In this document: in pieces, positions 47,679 through 56,150 of the stretch
How positions within the stretch are numbered: the stretch's first letter is position 1
How the letters are laid out: each line of letters starts with the position of its first letter
Assembly: GCF_017916425.1 (NCBI RefSeq)
Contig: NZ_JAFMSX010000001.1
Coordinates: 1,240,001-1,304,000, forward strand
DNA: 64,000 bases
From: Nocardioides sp. SYSU D00065
GTDB taxonomy: Bacteria; Actinomycetota; Actinomycetes; Propionibacteriales; Nocardioidaceae
Reading direction: 5' to 3'
The notes under the pieces: model-generated
What the model was told of the DNA's origin: nothing
The model's input: the letters and a program-made list of their open reading frames with translations, nothing else
Databases searched by the model: none
Program-made: the position numbers and the translations under genes

Positions 47679-49352
47679 TCAGCGACCCCGCTGTTCCTCC
47701 GCTGGCGGCTGCAGGCCGACCACGTCGAGGCCCCGGCTCCGCGCCACGTAGCCCATGAGCCGCTCGACGGCATGGGCGGTCGTGGTGTAGGACCCGTCCC
47801 CCTCGTCCTGGAAGTCCGCGGCCGTCATCCGCAGTCCCTTGAGCACCTCGACCAGGCTCCCCCGCATGATGTAGATCGACCCCGACGGAAACCTCAGCCC
47901 ACGCGCCGGGCATCGCACGCGGATGCGTCGTGCCAGGTGGCGGACGGCCCGGCGATCGGTGCCCCACGCGTCGGGGCCGGCGATGCTCCCCTCGTGGCAG
48001 CCCAGACCGCCTCGCCCCCGCGTCACTGACCCGTAGGCGTCGTGGAAGGCGGCGCGCGAGCCGAGCAGGCTCCCGACGAGCTGCTCGCGCCAGCCGTCGC
48101 CGGTCGTCGCGCTCAGCACCGTGGCGACCCCTTGGTGGCTCTTCTTCGTGTGCAGCTTGAGCACCGCGTCGTAACCGTCCAGGAGTCCTGACTGGACGAC
48201 CTGGAGGAACGGCCAGATGTCGCGACCACGGTTCTCGACGTCCAGCACCAGCGTGGACCCGGCGGCGGTCCCCGGCAGGTCGAGCGGTGTGCCGGTCGCG
48301 TTGGTGACGAACAGGTCGTAGGGCACGTCGACCACTCGCAGGCGGTCCAGGAGCTCGGGCACGAGGTCCGGGTAGTAGACGTGCAGCACCACGGCCAGCC
48401 GACCCTTCGACGAGCCGCGCGTCATCCCGCCCTGCCGGGACGGCTGGGATCCGAGCAGCGACGCAGGCGCTCCACGGCGGCGACGCCAGGTCCCGTAGTC
48501 GCACGCGAGGTCGGTCGGGATCCCGAGCCGGAACTTCAGCTCGATCGCCGCCAGATGCCTGCCTCGTCGCCGCAGGGCGAAGATCGGACTGTCCCTGCGA
48601 CGCTGCTCCGCGCCGCTGGAGTCGGCCACGGCGTCGATCTGCTCGACCACTCGTGACTCGACCTCCGGCGGGTCGAGCAACGAGACGGCGCTGGTCGGAC
48701 GCTCGACCCGCCGGGCGACCACCGCCATGTGCAGGTACCGGGCATCACCGATGATGCTGCCCATCGGCCGGAGCCACCGGTAACGGAACTGGCCCAGCAC
48801 ATCGCTCACGCCCTCGATGCGCTCGACCTCGTAGCCGCATCGGTGGAACATCTCGACGATGGATCGGCGCGTGAAGAACCTGACGTGCGTGCGGTCGAGG
48901 GTCCCGGTGTCCTCGTAGTCCCAGCGGCCCCGGGCGAGGTCGACGAGCACGGGGAGGTACTGGATGTTGGGGATCGAGGCGAGCACGCGCCCACCCTGGG
49001 CGAGGTGCTCGTGGCACGCGTAGAGGAGGGCCCAGGGGTCGTAGACGTGCTCCAGCACGTCCATGAAGCACACGAGGTCCAGGTCGGTCCACGATGGTGG
49101 CACCGACTCCGGGTAGAAGCCCTCGACCACCTCGTCGAAGCCGTGGCCCCGAGCGGCGACGCGTGCCTGCTCGGCCACCGACTCGATGCCGACGATCCAG
49201 GCCTCGGGCCCGAGCCGCTCGCGGAGCGTCCGGCCGAAGCCGCCCTTGCCGCAGCCGACGTCAGCGGCCCTGCGGGCATCCGGCGGCACGAAGTCGGCGA
49301 ACTCCTCCCGAGGGTCGTCCAGGTACACGCCCTGCTGCGTCAGGTCCTCCAC
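47679..49352 (-). CDS. SAM methyltransferase fused to rhamnan-synthesis-F-like domain
   Basis: The 557-residue protein is bimodular. Residues 1-215 form a class-I methyltransferase with motif I ADVGCGKGGFGR and LVCFMDVLEHVYDPWALL. After a linker rich in basic residues (about 240-310), residues 315-540 resemble RgpF (rhamnan synthesis protein F), with VVLHVYYPDLVPELLDRL, ENRGRDIWPFL and KLHTKKS. It could methylate and glycosylate the same glycan terminus. GTG 49352 follows GGGAGGGG; a TAGGCT -10 box lies at 49389-49384. Confidence 0.83.
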   Translation of the reverse strand: MEDLTQQGVYLDDPREEFADFVPPDARRAADVGCGKGGFGRTLRERLGPEAWIVGIESVAEQARVAARGHGFDEVVEGFYPESVPPSWTDLDLVCFMDVLEHVYDPWALLYACHEHLAQGGRVLASIPNIQYLPVLVDLARGRWDYEDTGTLDRTHVRFFTRRSIVEMFHRCGYEVERIEGVSDVLGQFRYRWLRPMGSIIGDARYLHMAVVARRVERPTSAVSLLDPPEVESRVVEQIDAVADSSGAEQRRRDSPIFALRRRGRHLAAIELKFRLGIPTDLACDYGTWRRRRGAPASLLGSQPSRQGGMTRGSSKGRLAVVLHVYYPDLVPELLDRLRVVDVPYDLFVTNATGTPLDLPGTAAGSTLVLDVENRGRDIWPFLQVVQSGLLDGYDAVLKLHTKKSHQGVATVLSATTGDGWREQLVGSLLGSRAAFHDAYGSVTRGRGGLGCHEGSIAGPDAWGTDRRAVRHLARRIRVRCPARGLRFPSGSIYIMRGSLVEVLKGLRMTAADFQDEGDGSYTTTAHAVERLMGYVARSRGLDVVGLQPPAEEQRGR

Positions 49353-50042: not shown

Positions 50043-51047
50043 ATGAGGGTGCTGCTGGTGAGCCCGGGCTTCCACGGCTACCACCGCGCCGTCTCGGCCG
50101 CCCTCGTCGCCCGCGGGCACGTCGTGTCGACCCACGTGTACGACGACCACGGCGGCGTCGTCGGTCGCACGTGGCACCAGGTCCGCCACCAGCTGCCTCG
50201 CCGTATCGGCGCCGGCTCGCTGCGACGGCTGGCCCGGGAGGAGACGACCGCCGCGGCGACCGTGGTGGAGCGGGCCCGACCGCAGGCGGTCGTCGTGATC
50301 AAGGGGGACACGCTCGGCCTCCGGTTCTGGGAGGCGCTCGCCGGCATCCCCCGGGTCACCTGGCTCTACGACGAGGTCCGGCGCACGCGCTGGACCACCG
50401 ACCGGCTCGCCGCCGCCGGCCCGCTGGCGACGTACTCGGCCCACGACCACGCCGCCTTCACCAGCGCCGGCCTGGGGTCGCGGCACCTTCCCCTCGCCTA
50501 CGACCACCGGCTCCTGCCCTCCCCGACACAGGCCCGCACCGCCACGGTCTCCTTCATCGGCGCGCGCTACCCGGCGCGCGAGCAGGTCCTCACCGGCCTG
50601 CAGGAGCGCGCGGTGCCGGTCCGAGCCTACGGCCGCGACTGGTCCGGGCACCCGGTGGACCGCATCCGGACCTGGCGGGTCGCCACACCACCCGTCCCGG
50701 CCGAGCGCGACCTCCCCCGCGCGGCGGCGTACGACGTGATGGCGGCCTCAGCGGCCACCCTCAACCTGCACGGCGACCAGGACGGCTTCACCATGCGCAC
50801 GTTCGAGGCGGCCGGGGTCGGCGGCGTGCAGGTCATCGACCGCGCCGACGTCGACAGCCTCTACGAGCCCGGCACGGAGGTGGCCACCTGGTCCGACCCC
50901 GACGAGCTGGCCGAGCTGTGCCGGCGTGCGCTCACCGATTCGTCGTGGACGGGTCCGCTGCGGCGAGCCGCCAGGGCCCGGACGCTGGCCGAGCACACCT
51001 TCGACCACCGGGTGGCCGTGCTGGAGGACGCGTGGGACACGGTCTGA
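50043..51047 (+). CDS. CgeB-like GT-B glycosyltransferase
   Basis: The 334-residue protein has a GT-B shape with MRVLLVSPGFHGYHRAVSAAL at the start and VVVIKGDTLGLRFWEAL. A C-terminal region LNLHGDQDGFTMRTFEAAGVGGVQVIDR resembles CgeB/DUF3880-associated glycosyltransferases. It starts 4 bp after the acyltransferase stop. Its 3' end overlaps the next gene by 16 bp. The acceptor and donor are unknown. Confidence 0.78.
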   Translation: MRVLLVSPGFHGYHRAVSAALVARGHVVSTHVYDDHGGVVGRTWHQVRHQLPRRIGAGSLRRLAREETTAAATVVERARPQAVVVIKGDTLGLRFWEALAGIPRVTWLYDEVRRTRWTTDRLAAAGPLATYSAHDHAAFTSAGLGSRHLPLAYDHRLLPSPTQARTATVSFIGARYPAREQVLTGLQERAVPVRAYGRDWSGHPVDRIRTWRVATPPVPAERDLPRAAAYDVMAASAATLNLHGDQDGFTMRTFEAAGVGGVQVIDRADVDSLYEPGTEVATWSDPDELAELCRRALTDSSWTGPLRRAARARTLAEHTFDHRVAVLEDAWDTV

Positions 51048-52078
51048 GGCACCCCGCCGACCTCGTCGCCTGGCGCCGCTGGCACGAGTCGCGGCACCCG
51101 GTCCGTGGCGCCGCCCGAGCTGCTCGCGCCCGGTTGCGACCGCCGGCGGAGGAGGTGCTCGACCTGCTGAGTCCCGGCGACGACGCCGACCTCCTGGTCG
51201 CTGTCGAGGCGACGCACAGCAGCGTCCACCACGCCGTCGTCGCAGCCCTCGATCACCTGGAGCCGGGCCGCACCGCCGTCGTGGCTCCGCACGGCTGGCA
51301 GCCGCCCCACGCGTACGCCGGTCACGGCCGGCGCACGCTCACGGTCGACCAGCTGCCCTGGGCGACCGCGCCGCACGCGGTGCTGGCGGCCGGTCACTAC
51401 ACCGCGATCGGGGCCGCCGCCTTCGCGCTGGCCGAGGACCGCGGTGCGCCGTTCCTCGTGGCCCAGCACGGCGCGCTGACGCCCTTCGCGCCACCCCTGC
51501 CGCGGGCGGCCCACCTGCTCGCGTGGACCGGGGCGGACGGAGCGTTCTGGACGCACGGACGCCAGGACGTCGAGGTGACGGTGACCGGCAGCCAGCTGCT
51601 GTGGGCGGCGGCCACAGCGGGGGCGTCGCCGTCGAGCAGTGGCTCTGCCGCACCGCTGACCTACCTGGGGCAGGGGCACGCCGCGGAGATCCCGCGCGCC
51701 CGGCTGGCCGTCGCCGCCCTCGTCACCTGCCGTGACCACGGCGCCGCCTACCGCCCGCACCCGTCCGAGCGCGACGTGACCTCGCGCGCGGTGCTGGCGG
51801 CGTACCGCCGCGCCGGCATCACCGTCGACACCAGCGCAGTGCCGCTCGTCGAGCTCGAGGCGCCGATCGTCAGCGTGTTCTCCACCGGGGTGCTCGAGGC
51901 CGCCGCACGCGGTCGCGACGCGTGGGTCGACTTCCCGCATCCACCCGCGTGGCTGGGCGAGTTCTGGGAGCGTTATGCCATGCACCGCCTCGGGACCCCG
52001 CCCACGCCCGCGCCCGACCGGCCGACGCACCAGCCGGCTCGCCGGATCGCCGAGGTCCTGACCGAGGCGGCGTCATGA
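51032..52078 (+). CDS. Putative polysialyltransferase/KpsS-like glycan transferase
   Basis: The 348-residue protein has no confident family match. FLVAQHGALTPFAPPLP, VTVTGSQLLWAA, AYRPHPSERDVTSRAVLAAY and IVSVFSTGVLEAAARGRDAWVDFPH resemble the C-terminal HPxE and S/T-rich motifs of polysialyltransferases and CDP-glycerol-type transferases (GT-B). Its position directly before the CMP-sugar synthetase supports transfer of a nonulosonic acid, but this is inference. GTG 51032 follows GGAGG by 4 nt, overlapping the previous gene. The stop overlaps the NeuA-like start (ATGA). Confidence 0.55.
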   Translation: MGHGLRHPADLVAWRRWHESRHPVRGAARAARARLRPPAEEVLDLLSPGDDADLLVAVEATHSSVHHAVVAALDHLEPGRTAVVAPHGWQPPHAYAGHGRRTLTVDQLPWATAPHAVLAAGHYTAIGAAAFALAEDRGAPFLVAQHGALTPFAPPLPRAAHLLAWTGADGAFWTHGRQDVEVTVTGSQLLWAAATAGASPSSSGSAAPLTYLGQGHAAEIPRARLAVAALVTCRDHGAAYRPHPSERDVTSRAVLAAYRRAGITVDTSAVPLVELEAPIVSVFSTGVLEAAARGRDAWVDFPHPPAWLGEFWERYAMHRLGTPPTPAPDRPTHQPARRIAEVLTEAAS

Positions 52079-52755
52079 CGCTGTGCGTGATCCCCGCCCG
52101 TGGCGGCTCCAAGGGCGTGCCCCGCAAGAACCTCCTCGACGTCGGCGGCAAGCCGTTGATCGTGTGGACGATCGAGCAGGCGCTGGCGGTCCCGGAGCTC
52201 GACGTGCTGGTCTCCACCGACGACGAGGAGATCGCTGGCGTCGCCCGGGCCGCCGGGGCGCGCGTGCCGTGGCTGCGGCCCGCCGAGCTCGCGCGGGACA
52301 CCACGCCGACGGAGCCGGTCGTGCGCCATGCCATCGAGCAGGTCACCGCCGAGCGCGGCCGGCCCGACGCGGTGATGCTGCTCCAGGCGACCTCCCCGGT
52401 GCGCCACGACGACACGCTCGGCCGCGCGCTGGCGGAGTTCGCGGACACTGGCGTGGACTCGATGGTCGGCGTCGTCGAGCAGCCGCCGTTCATCTGGCAG
52501 GCCGGCGACCCGCCGCGCGCGGCGTACGACGTCGCGGCGCGCCCGCGGCGCCAGGACCTCACCGACGAGACCCGGCGCTATCGCGAGACCGGCTCGCTCT
52601 ACCTCACCCGCACCGACGTCTACGAGCAGCACGACAACCGACTCGGCGGCCGGATCGGGCTGTTCGTGATGGCCGAGGACGAGGGCGTCGACATCGACAC
52701 CGAGCTCGACGTCGCGCTCGCGGCGCGCTTGCTGACCGCCCCTTCTCCGAGGTGA
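52075..52755 (+). CDS. CMP-nonulosonate (NeuA-type) cytidylyltransferase
   Basis: The 226-residue protein begins LCVIPARGGSKGVPRKNLLDVGGKPLI, the hallmark CTP-binding P-loop of CMP-sialic-acid/CMP-KDO synthetases. It has VLVSTDDEEIAGVARAAGA, LLQATSPVR and DIDTELDVALAA near the end. It activates a nonulosonic acid (sialic, legionaminic or related) with CTP. The exact sugar cannot be assigned. It starts by ATGA overlap with the putative transferase gene. The NeuB-type gene starts 63 bp downstream. Confidence 0.88.
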   Translation: MTLCVIPARGGSKGVPRKNLLDVGGKPLIVWTIEQALAVPELDVLVSTDDEEIAGVARAAGARVPWLRPAELARDTTPTEPVVRHAIEQVTAERGRPDAVMLLQATSPVRHDDTLGRALAEFADTGVDSMVGVVEQPPFIWQAGDPPRAAYDVAARPRRQDLTDETRRYRETGSLYLTRTDVYEQHDNRLGGRIGLFVMAEDEGVDIDTELDVALAARLLTAPSPR

Positions 52756-52818: not shown

Positions 52819-55092
52819 TTGATCATCGAGCGTGACCTCACGCCCTACGTCGTCTACTCGGGCGACCCGGTCCTGCGGGCACTGGAGAAGATCACCGCCA
52901 ACAAGGCGCGCGTGATCTTCCTCGTCGACGCCCACGGCCACCTCGACGGCGTGCTGTCCGACGGCGACTTCCGCCGCTGGGTCAGCAGCGCGGCCAGCCT
53001 CACCGTCGACGTGCCGGCGCTCGAGGCCGCGAACACCTCGCCGCGCAGCCTGCCCGTCGGGAGCAGCCCCGCCGAGATCACGCACGCCTTCGGGTCGGGC
53101 ATCGACCACGTGGCGCTCGTGGACGAGCGCGGGCACCTCGTCGCCATCGCGATCAACCGCGCCGACGAGCTCCGCATCGGCCGCCACGTGGTCGCCTCCG
53201 ACGCGCCGGCGCTGATGGTGTCCGAGATCGGCATCAACCACCAGGGCGAGGTGTCGCTGGCCAAGCAGCTCGTCGACCTGTCCGTCGAGGCGGGCGCCGA
53301 CGTCGTGAAGTTCCAGCTGCGCGACATGGACTCGCTCTACCGCCAGGGGTCGTCCGGCTCGGGCGGGGAGGACCTCGGCCCGCAGTACACCCTCGACCTG
53401 CTCGCGAAGTACGACCTCGGCGCCGACGGGCTCTTCGAGGTCTTCGACCACTGCCGCGACGTCGGCATCGACGTCATGTGCACCGCGTGGGACCCGGTGA
53501 GCGTGGACCGCCTCGTCGACTACGGCATCCCCTCGCTCAAGGTCGCCTCTGCCGACATGACCAACCACGCGCTGCTGCGGCACATGGCCGCGAGCGGGAC
53601 GCCGATGGTGATCTCGACCGGCATGTCCACCGAGGGCGAGATCCGCGAGACCGTCGACCTGGTCCGGAGCACCGGCGTCGCCCACGCCTTCCTGCACTGC
53701 CAGTCGACCTACCCGGCGCCGTTCAAGGACGTCAACCTGGCCTACCTGACGCGGCTCGCCGAGCTCACCCGGGCACCCGTCGGCTACTCCGGCCACGAGC
53801 GCGGGTTCCACGTCGTGCTCGCCGCGGTGGCGCTGGGCGCGCGGATCATCGAGAAGCACTTCACCGTGGACCGCGACCTCGAGGGCAACGACCACAAGGT
53901 CAGCCTGCTGCCCGGCGAGTACCGCGAGATGGTGCAGCGGGTGCGGGAGGTGGAGGAGGCCCTCGGCACCTCGGCACCTCGCGCGGTGTCGACCGGGGAG
54001 ATGATGAACCGGGTCAACCTCGCCAAGTCGCTCGTCGCCGCGCGCCGCATCGAGGCCGGCGAGGTGCTCACCGAGGCCGACATCGACATCAAGAGCCCCG
54101 GTCGCGGGCTGCAGCCCAACGCCTTCGACCGACTCGTCGGCCGGACGACCTCGCGCGCGCTCGACCCCGGCGACTTCTTCTACGCCACCGACCTGGGCGA
54201 CGCGGCGCCGCGCGGGCGGGCGTACTCCTTCCGCCGTCCTTGGGGCCTGGCCGTGCGCTACCACGACATCGACGCCATGACGAAGGACACGACCCCCGAC
54301 TTCTTGGAGTTCCACTTCTCCTACAAGGACCTCGACCTCCCCGTCGCCGAGGTCTTCGCGAAGTACCCCGGCGGCCTGCCGATGGGCTTCACCACGCACT
54401 CCCCCGACCTGTTCGCGGGTGACTTCCTGCTCAACCTCGCCTCGGAGGACGACGAGCACTGGGAGCGCTCCATCCGCGAGCTCCAGCGCGTGGTCGACAC
54501 CACGCGGGAGATGCAGCAGCACTTCACCCGTGGCGCCGACGCCCGGGCCGACGCCGAGGGTCCGGTCGTCGTCGCCAGCCTCGGCGGCTTCACCAGCGAC
54601 GCGTTCGTACGTCCCGAGCAGCGCGCCGCGATGTACGAGCGGGTGGCGGCCGGCCTGGCCCGCGTCGACGACACCGGGGTCCGGCTGTGTGCGCAGACCC
54701 TGCCGCCCTACCCCTGGTACATGGGGGGACAGCTCTACTGCAACCTCTTCGTCGACCCGCGCGACACCGCCGAGTTCGCCGAGCGCCACGGCCGCCGCCT
54801 CTGCTTCGACGTCTCGCACTCCAAGCTGTCGGCCAACTACCTCGGCATGTCGTTCGCGGAGGCGACCGACCTGCTGGCACCGCACACCGAGCACCTCCAC
54901 CTCGTGGACGCGACCGGCGTCGACGGCGAGGGCGTGCAGGTGGGCGACGGCGAGATCGACTGGGCGGTGCTCGCCCAGCAGCTCGACGCGATGTCACCCG
55001 GTGTGAGCTTCATCCCCGAGATCTGGCAGGGGCACGTCAACGACGGCGAGGGCTTCTGGATCGCCCTCGAGCGGTTGGAGCAATGGTTCTGA
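52819..55092 (+). CDS. Multidomain NeuB-type nonulosonic acid synthase (CBS-NeuB-SAF-TIM barrel)
   Basis: The 757-residue protein has four modules. A CBS pair covers 1-125 (VIFLVDAHGHLDGVLSDGDFRRW). The NeuB catalytic barrel covers 130-390, with EIGINHQG (136-143), KFQLR, KVASADMTNH, STGMS, HCQSTYP, GYSGHERG and EKHFT. A SAF/antifreeze-like domain covers 395-455. A C-terminal xylose-isomerase-like TIM barrel covers about 475-757. The NeuB core condenses phosphoenolpyruvate with an N-acylated sugar. The extra barrel could make or open the substrate sugar, and the CBS pair may sense nucleotide. The start is TTG 52819, with GGAAGG 8 nt upstream; GTG 52783 is an alternative. Confidence 0.85.
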   Translation: MIIERDLTPYVVYSGDPVLRALEKITANKARVIFLVDAHGHLDGVLSDGDFRRWVSSAASLTVDVPALEAANTSPRSLPVGSSPAEITHAFGSGIDHVALVDERGHLVAIAINRADELRIGRHVVASDAPALMVSEIGINHQGEVSLAKQLVDLSVEAGADVVKFQLRDMDSLYRQGSSGSGGEDLGPQYTLDLLAKYDLGADGLFEVFDHCRDVGIDVMCTAWDPVSVDRLVDYGIPSLKVASADMTNHALLRHMAASGTPMVISTGMSTEGEIRETVDLVRSTGVAHAFLHCQSTYPAPFKDVNLAYLTRLAELTRAPVGYSGHERGFHVVLAAVALGARIIEKHFTVDRDLEGNDHKVSLLPGEYREMVQRVREVEEALGTSAPRAVSTGEMMNRVNLAKSLVAARRIEAGEVLTEADIDIKSPGRGLQPNAFDRLVGRTTSRALDPGDFFYATDLGDAAPRGRAYSFRRPWGLAVRYHDIDAMTKDTTPDFLEFHFSYKDLDLPVAEVFAKYPGGLPMGFTTHSPDLFAGDFLLNLASEDDEHWERSIRELQRVVDTTREMQQHFTRGADARADAEGPVVVASLGGFTSDAFVRPEQRAAMYERVAAGLARVDDTGVRLCAQTLPPYPWYMGGQLYCNLFVDPRDTAEFAERHGRRLCFDVSHSKLSANYLGMSFAEATDLLAPHTEHLHLVDATGVDGEGVQVGDGEIDWAVLAQQLDAMSPGVSFIPEIWQGHVNDGEGFWIALERLEQWF

Positions 55093-56150
55093 CCCCAGCC
55101 ACACCTCCCCTGGCGCTGTGGGTGGTCCCCGTCAGCGACCTGGCCGGCGTGGCGCGGCACGTCCTCGACGTGGCGCGCTCGGGCATCCCCGGCTGGCGGC
55201 TGCTGTTCCTGGCCCCGCCCGGCGCCCTGCCCGAGCGGTTGCGCGAGCTCGGCGCCGAGGTGGTCGAGGAACCCTTCGGGCCCGACCACGGCCTGCGCGC
55301 CTCGGTGGCCACCCTGCGCGACGTCGTACGCCGCGAGCGCCCCGCGCTCGTGCACAGTCACCTGTCCTACGCGGACATCGTCGCGGCGCTGGCCGTCGGC
55401 CGCGGCACCCGCCTGGTCACGACCGAGCACGGCATCGCCCGCGACGACGTCGTCTACCACCGCACGAGCGGCAAGGCGAGGCTGATGGCGGCCGCCCACA
55501 CCGTGCGGCTGCGCCGCTTCGACGCCGCGATCGCGGTGAGCCGCGCGACCGCGGCGGCGATGGTCGAGAAGTGGCACCCGCGACGCGAGGTCGTGGTGGT
55601 CCCCAACGGTGTCGACCCGGTCGCCGCCGCGACGCCCACCACGGGGCTGCGGATCCTGTCTCTGGCACGGCTGTCGCCGGAGAAGCGGCTGCCCGCCCTG
55701 CTCGACGGCTTCGCCGAGCTCCACCGCACCCACCCGCAGGCGAGGCTGACGCTGGCCGGCACCGGCCCGGAGGAGCCGGCGCTGCGCGCCCAGGTCGAGC
55801 GGCTGGGCCTCGCCGACGCGGTCGTCCTGCCCGGCTTCGTCGACCCCGGGCCGGCGATGGCCGCGCACGATGTGCTGGCGATGCTGTCGGTGTGGGAGAA
55901 CTGCTCCTACGCGCTCCTGGACGCCGCCGCACGTGGCCTGGGAGTGGTCGCCAGCAACGTCGGCGGCAACCCCGAGATGCTGCCCCCGGAGGCCCTCGTG
56001 CGCGCGGACGACGCCGGCGCCGTGGCCGGCGCGCTCGCCCGTCAGGGTCTCGACCTCGCTGCGCGGCCGGAGCTCGACCGGTGGCCGACCGTGGCCGAGA
56101 TGTGCGCCGAGATCGGCGCGACGTACGCGGCCGCGGGAGCGCGGACGTGA
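55083..56150 (+). CDS. GT4-family glycosyltransferase
   Basis: The 355-residue GT-B enzyme has LVHSHLSYADIVAALAVGRGTRLVTTEHG and FDAAIAVSRATAAAMVEKW. The C-terminal domain has ILSLARLSPEKRLPALLDGFAEL, GTGPEEPALRAQVERLGL and LSVWENCSYALLDAAARGLGVVAS. Its ATG lies inside the last codons of the NeuB fusion (10-bp overlap), with GGAG just upstream. It probably adds a sugar to the lipid-linked unit on the cytoplasmic side. Confidence 0.87.
   Translation: MVLTPATPPLALWVVPVSDLAGVARHVLDVARSGIPGWRLLFLAPPGALPERLRELGAEVVEEPFGPDHGLRASVATLRDVVRRERPALVHSHLSYADIVAALAVGRGTRLVTTEHGIARDDVVYHRTSGKARLMAAAHTVRLRRFDAAIAVSRATAAAMVEKWHPRREVVVVPNGVDPVAAATPTTGLRILSLARLSPEKRLPALLDGFAELHRTHPQARLTLAGTGPEEPALRAQVERLGLADAVVLPGFVDPGPAMAAHDVLAMLSVWENCSYALLDAAARGLGVVASNVGGNPEMLPPEALVRADDAGAVAGALARQGLDLAARPELDRWPTVAEMCAEIGATYAAAGART

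Follow-up and report, generated by a model that had tools for sequence, protein, structure and literature searches.

What would a sialic acid synthase-like enzyme make when one chain places a CBS pair before its catalytic barrel and a second, xylose-isomerase-like barrel behind it? The question is raised by a gene, here called NeuB4 (four-module NeuB), in a stretch of 64,000 nucleotides from the soil bacterium Nocardioides sp. SYSU D00065 (contig NZ_JAFMSX010000001.1, positions 1,240,001 to 1,304,000 of the forward strand), referred to below as the window. Our reading, to which we give slightly less than an even chance as a full scheme, is that NeuB4 would be a bifunctional, feedback-controlled 3-deoxy-2-ulosonate synthase, in which the rear barrel prepares the sugar that the NeuB part condenses with phosphoenolpyruvate (PEP).

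The gene lies in a single unbroken frame on the plus strand, from GTG 52783 to the stop codon at 55090-55092. An earlier note, made from the letters alone, had begun the protein at TTG 52819, and this choice is backed by the relatives, since all 68 homologues examined have a start codon at that position (ATG in 32, GTG in 19, TTG in 17; from 78 alignment rows, six were skipped for coordinates and four were gapped). Therefore, the true start is very probably TTG 52819 (M-I-I-E-R...), while residue numbers in NeuB4 are counted here from GTG 52783. The same note had described a CBS pair, NeuB, SAF and a xylose-isomerase-like barrel in one frame, which Pfam and profile searches confirmed: CBS at residues 21-68 (25.3 bits; cut-off 24), NeuB at 163-396 (E 1e-74, 251 bits; cut-off 22.1), SAF at 415-471 (E 9e-11, 42.6 bits; cut-off 21), and AP_endonuc_2, "xylose isomerase-like TIM barrel", at 523-754 (E 9e-21, 75.1 bits; cut-off 31.1). 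No second NeuB match was found in the home genome (3.87 Mb, 99.96% complete).

A scan of GTDB genomes returned 132 relatives, of which the best 80 were used; the alignment joined the window to the 77 loci without a stop in the matched stretch, leaving out L043 (a stop lies ahead of its start codon), L059 (NeuB frameshifted once) and L077 (two frameshifts in the barrel). With the window included, 76 of 81 proteins were unbroken across the modules (contig ends truncate L055, L075 and L080; two of the 76, L073 and L074, have the same gene sequence), and the four-module fusion is not due to chance. The nearest relatives in the scan belong to Nocardioides, with 96% identity to the protein of Nocardioides sp. 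SYSU D00778. Median dN/dS (ratio of nonsynonymous to synonymous substitution rates) between the window and 14 loci was low in all four modules: 0.087 for the CBS pair, 0.124 for NeuB, 0.174 for SAF and 0.126 for the barrel.

Surveys around a Sphingopyxis carrier covered 296 genomes of its class and 299 of its phylum, samples that include the centre genomes. The barrel occurred at strong score in 4 genomes of each, always in-frame with NeuB, and no strong stand-alone barrel was found in either; the earlier note had held that separately made halves would speak against its reading, and no separately made close copy of the barrel came to light in the two samples. Each survey gave one weak stand-alone match, likely other members of the barrel family: G298 (E 8.7e-5, unmatched when compared with the window protein by tblastn) and G809 (E 6.2e-6, 24% identity over residues 609-765). 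Moreover, a sample of 145 genomes of the phylum to which a Spartobacteria carrier belongs contained two NeuB4-level matches, namely the carrier and one further protein with all four Pfam domains. Below the NeuB4 members the scores drop sharply: the next NeuB reached E 1.8e-95 in the Spartobacteria-carrier survey, where the weakest NeuB4 had 8.5e-169, and E 7.8e-99 in the Pseudomonadota survey, where the weakest NeuB4 had 1.7e-162. NeuB4 is thus uncommon yet widely distributed, with carriers (phyla taken from record titles) in Actinomycetota, Pseudomonadota and Verrucomicrobiota. A plasmid search gave one full-length relative, unannotated there, on a plasmid of Ensifer canadensis (47.4%). A search by title and abstract among openly licensed papers, which is weak evidence of absence, turned up no NeuB joined to both a CBS pair and an isomerase barrel.

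A tree built from 56 NeuB domains separated the 24 barrel-bearing rows, the NeuB4 clade, from 30 shorter NeuBs by a branch supported at 100/99. Two members from the Pseudomonadota survey, L131 and L132, have NeuB, SAF and AP_endonuc_2 without a CBS pair; since they branch apart from the 22 members with one, either the NeuB-barrel fusion may be older and the CBS pair gained later, or the pair may have been lost once.

The NeuB and SAF part resembles the NeuB family, represented by N. meningitidis NeuB (1xuu/2wqp), in its barrel, SAF domain, and PEP- and metal-site residues. The model superimposed on 2wqp with Z 37.0 and a root-mean-square deviation (rmsd) of 4.1 over 341 aligned residues, and E25, K53, Q55, T110, K129, S132, S154, Y186, H215, H236 and D247 of the meningococcal enzyme, which we take to hold PEP, the metal and the sugar C1, are identical in all 24 NeuB4-clade rows. 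We regard it as almost certain that this part condenses PEP with a sugar acceptor. The claim of the earlier note that all NeuB motifs are intact holds for these catalytic and metal residues but not on the substrate side, where positions 134, 184 and 314 have changed; in every one of the 24 rows E134 is Asp, G133 is Ala, N184 is Ser and R314 is Ser. Arg314, in the SAF arm, and Glu134 lie at the sugar site and are important for N-acetylneuraminate synthase, and Arg314 is reportedly essential in the N. meningitidis enzyme, for which 4ipi and 4ipj are solved structures titled as R314A and R314K mutants. At this position Arg stands in 17 of the 18 other NeuBs that have a residue there, and in both solved references (12 more are gapped). 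Of 30 other NeuBs, 28 carry Ser at 184 and 16 carry Asp or Ser at 134; a NANS-like phosphorylated-sugar signature (D258, S308, SGHE), built on motifs of human NANS, was therefore dropped as not diagnostic.

Excerpts of one report place a Phe beside the active-site Ser of pseudaminic acid (Pse) synthases (PMC7371886). This Phe is absent from NeuB4, with Ala in 24/24 rows at position 133, taken as the residue after the active-site Ser. Since the sugar-side residues differ and the Pse-type Phe is absent, the specificity of NeuB4 probably differs from that of the known amino-sugar synthases, as judged from its residues. In this context, NeuB4 is unlike the sialic, legionaminic and pseudaminic acid synthases in its front CBS pair, its rear barrel, its own clade and its altered substrate-side positions, and it stays under the curated cut-offs of the NeuB and PseI models (for TIGR03586, pseudaminic acid synthase, 213.3 bits against 340.25).

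Searching with the whole model for similar folds brought up NeuB and related aldolase-type barrels alone, so the rear barrel was modelled by itself. It had been estimated at about 280 residues; it is real and spans about residues 480-769 (290 aa), and its model reached a pLDDT (predicted local distance difference test) of 90.0 and a pTM (predicted template modelling score) of 0.90. The best fold match was MJ1311 (3wqo; Z 23.1, rmsd 2.7, 241 aligned), and the isomerase Art22 (Z 22.7, rmsd 3.3, 245 aligned), a T. maritima ketose 3-epimerase (Z 22.2, rmsd 2.9, 245 aligned) and ketose 3-epimerases or their relatives (Z 20.0-22.6) were also found; the 50 matches listed span Z 19.7-23.1, with hydratase, oxygenase-type and nuclease entries among them. 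By profile search MJ1311 alone stood out (E 3.7e-8), and the endonuclease IV alignment covered 34 positions at E 0.08. Profile alignments pair Gln638 with the first metal Glu and Asp676 with Asp, and the one made with home-genome isomerases (local alignment probability 94.4) also pairs His704 with His and Glu746 with the last Glu. In the model of the isolated barrel the four positions lie at the ends of strands 155-159 and 193-197, within 223-228 and after 263-266, the placement that is usual at the active-site end of xylose-isomerase-like TIM barrels. The earlier note had proposed looking for conserved metal ligands here, and across homologues Asp, His and Glu are indeed kept, whereas the first Glu has become an invariant Gln; a loss of ligands across homologues, which the note had named as evidence against its reading, was not seen among the sequences searched. 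Compared with MJ1311, Art22 and the D-tagatose/D-psicose 3-epimerases, the barrel shares the fold (Z 20-23.1) and three of four metal-ligand positions, but differs in this Gln, in its fusion to NeuB, and in identity of 13-17%. Beyond the metal site, R492, H494, E509, H511, H539, T639, P641-642, W645, G648, G649 and the stretch W748-Q-G-H751 are invariant or nearly so. The barrel is very likely an enzyme, and we hold with good confidence that it is catalytically active.

The front module carries the motif SDGDFRRW (residues 59-66), with D62, R64 and R65 kept in 78/78 sequences. Pfam matched one repeat, just above its cut-off, and gave no match to the second; both repeats of a solved pair, 4o9k, are spanned when the region is searched as a profile (E 1.4e-10, profile positions 14-112), and the model of the region has two sets of strands and helices. 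This pair, the closest among solved structures, belongs to an arabinose 5-phosphate isomerase, and in NCBIfam the CBS region of the window itself is related to KpsF/GutQ alone. The 4o9k structure was reportedly deposited with CMP-Kdo (cytidine monophosphate linked to 3-deoxy-D-manno-octulosonic acid) bound, which a literature search did not confirm. These relationships suggest that the pair may sense the end product, a CMP-sugar; that its ligand is either a CMP-sugar or a nucleotide seems to us about as likely as not. Near the CBS-less gene of L131 and L132, a CBS pair sits on an HddA-like heptose (GHMP) kinase (L131 9710-11230, minus strand; L132 4787-6406, plus strand; Pfam was run on the L131 protein and NCBIfam on the L132 protein, HddA-like but under cut-off). 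CBS pairs seem to move among sugar-nucleotide enzymes.

The constant partner of NeuB4 is a NeuA-like cytidylyltransferase. Among 84 loci (the window, L002-L081 and L131-L133) such a gene lies within 2.5 kb of NeuB4 in 79, and within 100 bases in 67 (at L057, 9 bases away); in four of the five loci lacking such a gene no more than 306 bases of upstream sequence are present, and at L064 none occurs within 8 kb on either side. No HAD motif was found in the tail of any of these 79 partners, the longest tail being 87 aa. The gene upstream of NeuA (Table 1) encodes a protein with RPHP and STG motifs, invariant in 18 aligned sequences and reminiscent of bacterial sialyltransferases; a search of PDB sequences gave no convincing relative. 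It is a probable transferase of the CMP-sugar and a candidate for a new family of CMP-ulosonate transferases. Since glycosyltransferases, and by inspection of frames an ABC transporter, a phosphoglycosyltransferase and a Wzc-like protein, surround NeuB4, its product most likely enters a surface polysaccharide. Also in the window, at 47679-49352 on the minus strand, a methyltransferase domain is fused to an RgpF-like (rhamnan synthesis) domain.

Table 1. Coordinates within the window of NeuB4, its modules, selected residues and adjoining genes.
Feature	Position	Strand	Basis or remark
NeuB4 (four-module NeuB)	52819..55092	+	757 aa from TTG 52819
N-terminal CBS pair	52819..53172	+	Pfam CBS, profile match to 4o9k, conservation
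NeuB catalytic barrel	53269..53970	+	Pfam, structure match to 2wqp
SAF domain	54025..54195	+	Pfam
Ser438, position of N. meningitidis NeuB Arg314	54094..54096	+	Ser in 24/24 NeuB4-clade rows
C-terminal xylose-isomerase-like TIM barrel	54220..55089	+	AP_endonuc_2, model, fold matches
Gln638, position of the superfamily's first metal-ligand Glu	54694..54696	+	Gln in 77/77
Asp676, putative metal ligand	54808..54810	+	77/77; His679 of DxxH also 77/77
His704, putative metal ligand	54892..54894	+	76/76
Glu746, putative metal ligand	55018..55020	+	76/76
NeuA-like cytidylyltransferase, without HAD phosphatase tail	52075..52755	+	226 aa
Protein without Pfam or NCBIfam match	51032..52078	+	Same cluster in 41 other loci
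Glycosyltransferase (Glyco_trans_1_2), same gene run	50043..51047	+	Pfam
Family 4 glycosyltransferase, downstream of NeuB4	55110..56150	+	Pfam

In three loci the surroundings are richer. A Gfo/Idh oxidoreductase, a second NeuA-like protein and a short-chain dehydrogenase/reductase (SDR) lie beside NeuB4 in L063, L073 and L074, and in L063 a second, short NeuB comes next; hence NeuB4 works there beside another pathway. L073 is titled an actinobacterial metagenome-assembled genome, but in its NeuB4 gene it does not differ from Sphingomonas corticis (L074), and the contig may be misbinned.

Regarding the acceptor, the home genome gave no PseC match, and the DegT aminotransferase family matched only partially (up to 36.5 bits), which speaks against legionaminic acid (Leg) and Pse in this organism. 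PF02350, the UDP-GlcNAc (uridine diphosphate N-acetylglucosamine) 2-epimerase family that includes NeuC, LegG and WecB, went unmatched in five of the 13 carrier genomes, five for which no completeness is given. Together with Ser438 this favours a neutral, non-N-acetylated aldose as acceptor, and we infer a product that would be like 2-keto-3-deoxynonulosonic acid (Kdn) or a less usual ulosonic acid.

The scheme that we propose would run as follows. The C-terminal metal-dependent barrel would turn a sugar of central metabolism, most likely a ketose, into an aldose acceptor by isomerisation or epimerisation, and the NeuB-SAF part would add PEP to that aldose. NeuA next door would activate the product with cytidine triphosphate (CTP) for a surface polysaccharide, and the CBS pair would bind the CMP-sugar or a nucleotide and adjust the flux. 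For the upstream isomerase or epimerase role of the barrel we see the chances as even. By analogy, the simplest reading would be the KdsD/KdsA system in one chain, with an isomerase, a PEP-condensing enzyme and a product-reading CBS pair. KdsD isomerises ribulose 5-phosphate and feeds KdsA; KdsD/KpsF proteins thus share with NeuB4 an isomerase and a CBS pair upstream of PEP condensation, as well as a similar DGD-RR motif in the pair, but they have an SIS isomerase fold in place of a TIM barrel, and in NeuB4 the condensing enzyme shares one chain with the barrel. The earlier note had envisaged a self-contained route to an unusual sugar acid, and this is partly supported: the fusion is real and conserved, the barrel keeps its metal-site residues, and the constant partner NeuA, the lack of PseC and the weak, partial DegT matches in the home genome fit such a route. 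A bolder form, possible but rather doubtful in our view, is that NeuB4 and NeuA would make a two-gene route to a 3-deoxy-2-ulosonic acid outside the N-acetylneuraminic acid (Neu), Leg, Pse and Kdn types, with an in-chain metal isomerase taking a central ketose to an uncommon neutral aldose, PEP condensation, and a CBS pair reading the CMP-product.

Several observations weigh against the main scheme. Ketose 3-epimerases have a Glu-Asp-His-Glu metal site with two catalytic Glu residues, the first of which is both ligand and base, and the invariant Gln638 argues against such two-base chemistry in the barrel. Endonuclease IV (5zhz) scores nearly as high in the fold search (Z 21.0, rmsd 3.0, 234 aligned), and the fold gives no certainty about the reaction. 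The CBS match to an unrelated CBS protein, 2yzq, is nearly equal to the best one (E 1.6e-10). Near the CBS-less gene of L131 and L132 there are SDRs and a separate isomerase-like protein (Pfam was run on that of L132), and the fused barrel may not be the sole isomerase at work there. On the precursor side, matches to the PseC model, all under the cut-off, appeared in 8 of the 11 carriers searched, so that DegT-type proteins are missing from the home genome and not from all carriers. PF02350 matched in 8 of 13 carriers, and the home genome holds a divergent PF02350 protein on another contig (C3, 347977-349107; a 448 aa frame matched in pieces of 116 and 65 bits); a supply of N-acetylmannosamine (ManNAc) is therefore conceivable.

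This last point bears on the plainest rival, an ordinary N-acetylneuraminate synthase with decorations that joins ManNAc and PEP to give N-acetylneuraminic acid. Such an enzyme would agree with these PF02350 proteins and with TIGR03569 (NeuB_NnaB) as the best NCBIfam match, but the 299.4 bits fall below the curated cut-off of 399.65, the exchanges at Arg314 and E134 hold in all 24 clade rows, and the PF02350 family goes unmatched in the five genomes of unstated completeness named above; we consider it quite improbable. Nor is the barrel likely to be a mere scaffold or sensor without catalysis, as the departure of one of four metal-ligand positions from the usual Glu might suggest, given that the replacement Gln and the other ligands are invariant and that the dN/dS of the barrel equals that of NeuB; this is the least credible of the alternatives. 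More serious, though still unlikely, is that the barrel is active in another reaction of the pathway, such as dehydration, hydrolysis of an activated sugar or tailoring of the acceptor. The many residues well away from the metal site that vary little or not at all, and the change of Glu to Gln, suggest chemistry of its own, and the second, separate isomerase-like protein in L131 and L132 points the same way, whereas the fold matches point more to isomerases and epimerases.

A further rival involves the phosphorylation state of the sugar, for which the short actinobacterial NeuBs, presumed to be of the Streptomyces kind, offer a comparison. According to excerpts of the sources, the S. coelicolor NeuB is SCO4881 (PMC2367054) and the wall polymer of this species contains Kdn (PMC7831098, PMC11481543). 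Like NeuB4, the short NeuBs have SGHE and SA motifs and an adjoining NeuA in the six loci fetched; unlike it, they form a separate clade (a NeuB of 289 aa without SAF match in the one scanned, L140), and their NeuA has a HAD tail. The idea that a Streptomyces-type NeuB shares the NeuB4 architecture was dropped, since tblastn at E values of 0.01 or lower, with flanks reaching about 1.5 kb, gave no barrel match at any of 29 short-NeuB loci of the phylum survey. In all six loci fetched (L135-L140, half of an actinobacterial clade of 12 rows) NeuA ends in a tail of 159-215 aa, confirmed by Pfam as a HAD phosphatase in 2/2 scanned, an arrangement that fits a sugar-phosphate, Kdn 9-phosphate-like route; in the tail of L139, one of the other four, the first Asp of the usual HAD motif is Ala. 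On this basis the NeuB part of NeuB4 might use a sugar phosphate (e.g., mannose 6-phosphate, giving Kdn 9-phosphate) and the barrel might act as a phosphatase before NeuA. The HAD tail present in 6/6 short-NeuB loci and in 0/79 NeuB4 partners agrees with this, since without it something else would have to dephosphorylate, and the barrel superfamily includes endonuclease IV, a metallo-phosphoesterase. Yet a HAD-less NeuA also fits unphosphorylated-sugar routes, and we know of no member of the xylose-isomerase-like barrel family that is a phosphatase acting on sugar phosphates. Furthermore, excerpts of one source report that many bacteria use unphosphorylated-sugar routes and that sugar phosphatases are functionally redundant (PMC6200933), the latter also telling against a dedicated barrel phosphatase. 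We judge the phosphatase reading unlikely, somewhat less so than the ManNAc one.

Other NeuB fusions were met along the way. Among NeuB frames of about 800 aa considered as further NeuB4 candidates, one was an overlong frame and five (L196-L200) were a different fusion, in which an N-terminal FAD-dependent (flavin adenine dinucleotide) amine-oxidase-like half precedes NeuB and SAF (one of these proteins was scanned with Pfam); this half also resembles UDP-galactopyranose mutase.

Products of NeuB enzymes are predicted from neighbouring genes, and beside NeuB4 the usual precursor genes are missing; the precursor step may instead sit inside the synthase chain itself. If the isomerase and condensing enzyme reading of NeuB4 is true, genomes of Actinomycetota, Pseudomonadota and Verrucomicrobiota would hide sugar acids that present gene-cluster rules would label sialic acid, and NeuB4 would offer, in one chain, a system for testing CMP-sugar feedback on a condensing enzyme.

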